DNA of 41,479 bases from the NCBI GenBank assembly GCA_018882745.1, contig VFFD01000003.1, positions 1 through 41,479 of the forward strand, read 5' to 3'. This stretch comes from Candidatus Nanopelagicaceae bacterium (GTDB lineage Bacteria; Actinomycetota; Actinomycetes; Nanopelagicales; Nanopelagicaceae). Each line of letters starts with the position of its first letter. Position 1 is the first letter of the stretch. Shown here in pieces: positions 15,749-16,616 of the stretch. The notes under the pieces are model-generated. The model was given only the letters and a program-made list of their open reading frames with translations, made no database searches and was not told the DNA's origin. Made by a program: the position numbers and the translations under genes.

Positions 15749-15822
15749 GGCGGGGTAGCTCAGCCTGGTAGAGCAAGCGGCTCATAATCGCTGTGTCGTG
15801 GGTTCAAATCCCGCCTCCGCTA
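15749..15822 (+). tRNA. metT: tRNA-Met (CAU), elongator type
   Basis: A 74-nt cloverleaf: acceptor GGCGGGG with CTCCGCT, D-arm GCTC/GAGC, anticodon loop CTCATAA, T-loop TTCAAAT, discriminator A. CCA happens to follow at 15823-15825. It resembles actinobacterial elongator tRNA-Met and lies 18 bases after thrT, as expected. The final 19 bases of the tRNA overlap the 3' end of the HEPN gene on the other strand. Confidence 0.93.
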
Positions 15823-16379
15823 CCAACTAATCGCGCGTTCAGGAGTAAATCCAGGACGCGCGATCTTTTTTCTACTTCACGTGCAAGTTCTGGGTCGAGT
15901 ATTGCGGTGAGTTCGCCGAGATAAGCGTGATCGCGGATGAGATTGCGGCTTGAAATTTCACGTTGATGCGCGATCAAATTGCGAAGCGCGAGTATTTCAT
16001 TGGCTCGAAGATGAAAATTCTCTCTCCCGTCGCATAAAGAATCCAGATTAAGATTCAGCCACACTTTTGTGAAATAACGTTTCGTGAGTAAGGCCACCCA
16101 GAAACTTAGTGGCAATAGAGTCCGTACCTGATACTTCAATTCATCGATATTTGAACGATTTAGGACTCTTTGTATTTGCAGGGATTCCCTCTTAGATAAC
16201 AGCCCAGGCTGGTTCCACCAATCTTGTCTCTTGTATCTCCTCTGTAATCTGGAATCGATGAAATCACGCAAAGTAACCTCAAAGAAGAAAATGTGTACCC
16301 AGAGTGCAGCAGCAATTTCCGAATAAATAAAAATTAAATGCCAAACTTTCTCCTCAAATAGGGATTTTCCTATGTCCAT
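15804..16379 (-). CDS. HEPN-domain Abi-like (Abi_2 type) protein, probable RNase toxin
   Basis: A 191-residue helical protein of the Abi_2-like type common in actinobacteria. It shows IYSEIAAALWVHIFFFEVTLRDFI near the N terminus, LLPLSFWVALLTKRYFTKVW in the middle, and LRANEILALRNLIAHQREI, with the HEPN catalytic motif R133-x4-H138, then a tail. HEPN proteins with this motif cleave RNA, often tRNA or mRNA, and AbiF-like members act as toxins controlled by a non-coding RNA. The ATG at 16379 is chosen because the longer frame (to 16550) only translates the RNA repeats. No ribosome site is visible. The stop codon lies inside metT on the other strand. Three structured repeats start 17 bases upstream of the ATG. 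Toxicity and target are inferred. Confidence 0.82.
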   Translation of the reverse strand: MDIGKSLFEEKVWHLIFIYSEIAAALWVHIFFFEVTLRDFIDSRLQRRYKRQDWWNQPGLLSKRESLQIQRVLNRSNIDELKYQVRTLLPLSFWVALLTKRYFTKVWLNLNLDSLCDGRENFHLRANEILALRNLIAHQREISSRNLIRDHAYLGELTAILDPELAREVEKRSRVLDLLLNARLVGSGGGI

Positions 16380-16395
16380 AGTAAAGTTTGCACTA

Positions 16396-16446
16396 GAGCC
16401 CCAGGTGAACTCGAGAAATCGTTTACCGCCTGGGGATAGATTTTTT
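16396..16446 (+). ncRNA. Tandem hairpin RNA unit 1
   Basis: Outer stem CCCCAG (16399-16404) pairs with CTGGGG (16430-16435). Next come GTGAA with TTTAC (16405-16409, 16422-16426), a CT bulge, and CGA/TCG capped by the GAAA tetraloop 16415-16418. Six T follow at 16441-16446, so the plus strand would end like an intrinsic terminator. A TAAAGT box at 16382-16387 could be its -10. This unit sits directly before the HEPN ATG, on the opposite strand. Shares the GAGCCCC start with units 2 and 3 but is the most divergent. Confidence 0.68.
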
Positions 16447-16487
16447 CTGTGGGAATCACCAGAAAAGATTTCAAATAGGTTTCTGTA

Positions 16488-16493
16488 TATAAT
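16488..16493 (+). promoter_or_regulatory. -10 box for RNA unit 2
   Basis: A consensus TATAAT ends eight bases before the GAGCCCC that opens unit 2, so the RNA would start at about 16500. No good -35 is seen 16-19 bases upstream. Confidence 0.55.
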
Positions 16494-16500
16494 TGTGAAT

Positions 16501-16552
16501 GAGCCCCGGACGGAATCAAGAGATTGGTTGACGCGCCGGGGCGATCTCATTT
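16501..16552 (+). ncRNA. Tandem hairpin RNA unit 2
   Basis: Outer stem GCCCCGG (16503-16509) pairs perfectly with CCGGGGC (16536-16542). The internal loop is ACGG on the left (16510-16513) and GACGCG on the right (16530-16535). Inner stem AATCAA with TTGGTT (16514-16519, 16524-16529, one G-U) is capped by GAGA (16520-16523), a GNRA tetraloop. The 3' end is less U-rich than the other units (GATCTCATTT). Same architecture as unit 3 with different inner-stem bases, that is, compensatory change. Confidence 0.72.
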
Positions 16553-16557
16553 AGTAT
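16528..16557 (+). promoter_or_regulatory. Promoter for RNA unit 3
   Basis: TTGACG (16528-16533), an 18-base spacer, then TAGTAT (16552-16557), ending eight bases before the GAGCCCC of unit 3. The -35 lies within the 3' half of unit 2, so the two units are tightly nested. Confidence 0.6.
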
Positions 16558-16565
16558 TTCGTGTA

Positions 16566-16616
16566 GAGCCCCGGACGGAGTTACGAAAGTAACTAGCGCG
16601 CTGGGGATGTCTTTTT
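16566..16616 (+). ncRNA. Tandem hairpin RNA unit 3
   Basis: Outer stem CCCCGG (16569-16574) pairs with CTGGGG (16601-16606, one G-U). The internal loop is ACGG on the left (16575-16578) and AGCGCG on the right (16595-16600). A perfect inner stem AGTTAC/GTAACT (16579-16584, 16589-16594) is capped by GAAA (16585-16588). Five T follow at 16612-16616. Together with its own -35/-10 this predicts a stable RNA of about 50 nt on the plus strand. Confidence 0.75.

Follow-up and report, generated by a model that had tools for sequence, protein, structure and literature searches.

Three divergent hairpin RNA units beside an AbiF-like HEPN gene in Candidatus Nanopelagicaceae: a probable toxin/RNA-antitoxin module

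Three short hairpin RNA units lie directly upstream of, and divergent from, an Abi_2/AbiF-like HEPN gene on contig VFFD01000003.1 of a Candidatus Nanopelagicaceae bacterium, of which a stretch of 41,479 nt (the window) was analyzed. We read this locus as an AbiF-type toxin/RNA-antitoxin module whose units are divergent and have a promoter each, and assign this reading a probability of about 0.78. By analogy with Clostridioides difficile, in which a repeated hairpin RNA (RCd22) binds and neutralizes AbiF (PMC12373285), the three hairpins are most likely RNA antitoxins that hold the AbiF-like toxin off. In the window, the units (16399-16606, plus strand) are flanked by tRNA-Met and rpmG; the remaining features are listed in Table 1. 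An earlier note on this DNA had described the three RNA folds; the neighboring HEPN gene and the separate unit promoters were absent from it.

Table 1. Positions of the predicted features of the module in the window
Feature	Position	Strand	Basis
Abi_2/AbiF-like HEPN gene, 191 codons	15804-16379	-	Conserved ATG, 20 nt away from unit 1, taken as the start
HEPN catalytic motif RNLIAH, residues 133-138	15966-15983	-	R133, N134, and H138 unchanged across 39 relatives
-10-like TAAAGT, unit 1	16382-16387	+	Sequence, -10 count
RNA unit 1, type A hairpin	16399-16435	+	Fold; pattern restricted to this gene family; type A covariation
T-run after unit 1, possible terminator	16441-16446	+	Sequence
-10-like TATAAT, unit 2	16488-16493	+	Sequence, -10 count
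RNA unit 2, type B hairpin	16504-16541	+	Fold, type B pattern, covariation
-10-like TAGTAT, unit 3	16552-16557	+	Sequence, -10 count
RNA unit 3, type B hairpin	16569-16606	+	Fold, covariation
T-run after unit 3, possible terminator	16612-16616	+	Sequence

Folding of all three window hairpins on the plus strand exceeds chance, with z = -4.55, -2.19, and -2.93 for units 1, 2, and 3 relative to dinucleotide shuffles. Most of the elements described earlier are found as claimed: the GNRA caps GAAA, GAGA, and GAAA of units 1, 2, and 3; the inner stems AATCAA/TTGGTT of unit 2 and AGTTAC/GTAACT of unit 3; the internal loop common to these two units, ACGG against GACGCG or AGCGCG; and a fifth outer pair that is A-U, G-C, and G-U in turn. 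The inner stem proposed for unit 1, GTGAA/TTTAC, must be replaced. This pairing is not in the minimum free energy fold and competes with a 9-bp outer stem, CCCCAGGUG/CGCCUGGGG, above which the favored fold has an AACU/UUUAC internal loop and then a short inner stem, CGA/UCG (3 bp), under a GAAA cap. Unit 1 is a separate subtype (type A), and units 2 and 3 are type B.

The inner stem of unit 1 belongs to another subtype and cannot validly be compared for covariation with those of units 2 and 3, so this part of the covariation claimed among the three units falls away; homologous loci, however, do covary. Across nine type B units from such loci in four genera, all six inner-stem pairs are changed on both sides. 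Covarying cells number 15, as compared to a shuffled mean of 5.1 (0 of 500 shuffles), although some rows are closely related and the cells are not independent events. Sliding the partners against each other, as a control, destroyed the inner-stem pairing. The type B outer part, CCCCGGACG...CGCNCCGGGG, is common to several genera and genomic contexts, whereas the inner stem changes; the earlier division into constant outer and variable inner parts thus holds for type B, unit 1 being of the other subtype. Since the outer stem is nearly invariant across relatives, its G-C versus G-U difference is hardly informative. Type A contributes one compensatory pair, C-G to U-A, which is weak by itself. 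Retention of the sequences with loss of the pairing, which had been named as the outcome that would speak against a selected fold, is the opposite of what was found: type B relatives change the inner-stem sequence and stay paired. These data support the proposal that the hairpin fold is under selection, by all six inner-stem pairs for type B and by a single pair for type A. It is plausible that the fixed outer part is a protein-binding part, because the units adjoin an AbiF-like gene. A unit-specific function of the inner stem finds no support. The apical loops also differ between relatives (GNRA, UUCG, and triloops); the varying loops and inner stem are compatible with a structural spacer. 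The covariation also bears on whether the units could be guide RNAs, with the variable inner part choosing targets as in Cas13. A descent of Cas13 from AbiF has been reported (PMC12737573, PMC12373285), and the inner segments do differ from unit to unit. However, covariation keeps the variable part base-paired, so that it is not an exposed guide, and no unit-specific single-stranded stretch is seen, making this role scarcely tenable.

The gene and the RNAs are present or absent together. A relative of the HEPN gene occurs in 7 of 24 same-genus genomes, always after tRNA-Met and always with units, or a truncated unit, upstream; six of these contigs run on to rpmG, and one (L004) stops inside unit 1. 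In four genomes of the genus, tRNA-Met and rpmG are only 107-147 nt apart, with neither gene nor units at the site. In related genera, the units adjoin the HEPN gene in other genomic contexts. Searches of 296 same-family genomes with the type B pattern, CCCCGGACG-N13-22-CGCNCCGGGG, and the type A pattern gave seven and eight matches, and all 15 lie directly upstream of a relative of the HEPN gene; a reversed pattern, used as the control, gave none in any of the 296. No other copy of the unit patterns was found in the organism's own genome or in these relatives, which argues against REP-like or other dispersed palindromes and against plain bidirectional terminators. The units are indeed GC-rich palindromes, some followed by T-runs, but each is preceded by a -10 element, and their G-U pairs and covariation point to selection on RNA; we consider this reading very improbable. 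The hairpins could instead belong to rpmG as a leader, attenuator, or terminator, given that in the window they lie just upstream of it on the same strand. Sister genomes without units nevertheless retain tRNA-Met and rpmG at the short spacing given above, and G057, G276, G271, and G201 have units beside the HEPN gene with no rpmG after them, so that an rpmG element is barely credible. Contigs matching in a named collection came from Candidatus Nanopelagicaceae and unclassified Actinomycetota MAGs. G014 carries two tandem HEPN copies, of which the distal is a remnant, and a separate hairpin lies upstream of each (L007:769-803 and L007:1037-1074). Contig C2 of G271 carries three Abi_2 paralogues (L019, L021, and L022), every one accompanied by one or two hairpins of its own.

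The window protein contains the HEPN motif R-N-x-x-x-H as RNLIAH. In a Pfam search it falls below the Abi_2 (PF07751) cutoff and matches only HEPN_Swt1 (E 1e-4), and an NCBIfam search with it returned no family. Among its homologues, 25 of 39 match Abi_2 at E<=1e-3, some over the family cutoff, and relatives match the AbiD and PD-T4-5 profiles of PADLOC. The relatives came from whole-genome searches; a genome_contigs scan with the window protein gave no confirmed relative. A sequence search of the PDB matched 8VZ6, the structure of PbAbiF with its ncRNA, weakly (E 0.17, then 0.028), and fold comparison was used for this reason. DARPin matches in the same search were set aside as artifacts, spanning just a short AALWGHLEIVEVLL-like stretch. 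An AlphaFold2 model of the window protein (pLDDT 91.5) was compared to the PDB using Foldseek, which returned 8VZ6 with a probability of 1.00, a TM score of 0.69, and an E-value of only 0.068, at 12% identity over 215 columns. This entry is the sole confident fold match, the next best having a probability of 0.11. The predicted fold of the window protein is accordingly of the AbiF type. The 3′ end of the gene (15804-15825) runs antisense into the tRNA-Met gene, over its terminator, and a C-terminal GSGGG is common to all relatives in the genus.

A -10-like element, TAnnnT, starts 13-19 nt 5′ of the stem in 49 of 51 candidate units, nearly all at 16-18 nt and in tandem copies as well, as compared to a mean of 6.8 and a maximum of 15 in 1000 mononucleotide shuffles; the count takes in near-relative loci, two L048 hairpins, and L060:2303, which is probably no true unit. 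The positioned element suggests that the window units are separate transcripts, each probably starting a few nucleotides 5′ of its stem. G-U pairs and GNRA caps are seen in the plus-strand reading, and folding energy favors this strand in most units, but not all. The element before unit 1 lies only 3-8 nt from the start codon of the HEPN gene, and the divergent promoters consequently overlap. An alternative to protein-binding antitoxins is, then, regulation of the toxin gene in cis, by promoter interference or by antisense pairing of the units with its 5′ leader; RCd22 too lowers abiF expression (PMC12373285). We regard cis action as unlikely: the units point away from the gene and leave its coding sequence uncovered, neither antisense nor interference needs a conserved hairpin with changing inner sequence, and the distance from unit to start varies among relatives. 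Antitoxin RNAs that bind the protein are the preferred reading.

The closest parallel in arrangement is AbiF/RCd22 of C. difficile, which likewise combines an Abi_2/AbiF-kind HEPN protein with short hairpin RNA repeats immediately upstream (PMC12373285). That RNA is co-directional with abiF, contains two motifs per transcript, and matches Rfam family RF03085 (PMC12373285), whereas the window units are divergent, have their own promoter element each, and do not match RF03085. On a Phocaeicola plasmid (L163), too, an abiF-like RNA immediately precedes an Abi_2-like HEPN gene on the same strand; the window layout, divergent and with a promoter per unit, is unlike either of the co-directional examples compared. 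The abiF RNA of RF03085, like the units, is a hairpin of ~37 nt with a GC-rich outer stem and an asymmetric internal loop. Its core, GCCUCU...AUGC, is common to units of other actinomycete genera but missing from the window units. An Rfam search of the locus, at the gathering threshold and at E<=10, gave no relevant match; RF03085 is absent from the locus and from genome G000, and its model matched none of the window and other-genera units tested. Because the window units fall below the family cutoff of 37 bits, with no match even at E<=10, they are not filed as RF03085 members. Among solved folds, that of the PbAbiF-ncRNA complex 8VZ6 is nearest to the window protein, but the RNA of the complex is of a different sequence class. 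PD-T4-5, a distant AbiF/D relative whose profile is matched by relatives of the window protein, is described as an abortive defense in E. coli, with no RNA partner mentioned in the available part of the source (PMC9519451). The module also resembles type III toxin-antitoxin systems such as ToxIN, in which a protein toxin is paired with a repeated structured RNA as the antitoxin. Structured RNA repeats do adjoin the toxin gene (three units here, with the linkage kept in relatives). However, ToxIN has one cleaved precursor array, co-transcribed upstream of the toxin, whereas the window units are on the opposite strand and, as predicted from their separate -10-like elements, individually promoted; the module is therefore described as type III-like rather than typical type III. 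The toxin of ToxIN is a ToxN-type endoribonuclease, and the window protein is instead an HEPN protein.

Relatives of the window protein are found in 57 of 389 good genomes sampled across the class Actinomycetes, and most of the loci fetched have a divergent hairpin, often of ~36 nt. The consensus of the other-genera hairpins is CCCCGGG...GCCUCUGC...GCAUGCC...CCCGGGG. An RNA model, R1, built from 17 units, all from outside the window genus, recovers the other-genera units, with matches at E below 0.1 opposite in strand to the gene. On held-out viral contigs it finds the same divergent layout in L156, L108, and L109, with weaker matches in L114 and L122. It detects the window units only marginally (E 0.88), and these are therefore a divergent subtype. 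In some relatives (e.g., L062 and L066), no hairpin of this kind was recognized. Loci L039-L048, weaker matches from another genus with a different hairpin type, were mostly left out of the analysis. One of them, L048, has a weaker HEPN relative with tandem hairpins (L048:2054-2093 and L048:2146-2186) of the sequence class CCCCGAGA...AAUCGCUCGGGG, which suggests further RNA types. In G271, an RF03085 abiF RNA directly follows tRNA-Met (L078:1501-1536), the same slot as the window module; no Abi_2-like ORF was found in the 8 kb covered by L079.

Related RNAs also occur in phages. Phages Thibault, Acj61, PZL-Ah8, S-SZBM1, and CGphi29 contain an RF03085 abiF RNA scoring 50-58 bits (L124, L125, L126, L127, and L128, each at 2501-2537), which in Acj61, S-SZBM1, and Thibault is near or between tRNA genes. 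Within 2.5 kb of these five loci, the A6 profile detected no Abi_2-like ORF, although the canonical AbiF of Phocaeicola itself scores only E 1e-8 on this profile, so that an AbiF gene may have escaped it. The actinomycete-type RNA of the other genera is found in viral contigs at L155:799-834, L157:2116-2151, and L158:3711-3745, in L158 after a tRNA-like sequence, and the stretches fetched contain no Abi_2-like ORF. Such orphan antitoxin-like RNAs have the look expected of a phage counter-defense, and those of the five phages are candidate counter-defense RNAs. The type B pattern gave 26 matches in viral contigs, which were taken as chance, as every one lacks both the promoter element and, in the stretch fetched, an Abi_2-like ORF; the type A pattern gave no match.

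Our analysis allows a mechanism to be proposed. The minus-strand gene would encode an Abi_2-like HEPN protein, a predicted dimer that would cleave single-stranded RNA. The plus-strand hairpins would be made as short RNAs, each from its own promoter a few nucleotides before the stem, with a T-run after units 1 and 3. These antitoxin RNAs would keep the toxin inactive by binding it via the outer stem and internal loop, which are conserved; silencing of the HEPN RNase is predicted from the analogy with RCd22. Should RNA synthesis stop, for example upon phage takeover, the toxin would be freed, and the module may in this way provide phage defense.

More tentatively, the locus may represent a widespread actinomycete branch of AbiF in which one to three individually promoted, divergent hairpin antitoxins diversify within a locus, with some phages countering the AbiF class through orphan antitoxin RNAs. 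RNA partners missed by Rfam now have a consensus, and the host phylum is outside the two groups named as Abi_2 carriers in the C. difficile study (PMC12373285). The orphan abiF RNAs of phages offer a testable counter-defense idea. Because AbiF is reported as the ancestor of Cas13 (PMC12373285, PMC12737573), the arrangement and multiplication of its RNA partners bear on the origin of guide arrays; multiple RNA units may also arise, as this locus suggests, through independent promoters rather than one array.
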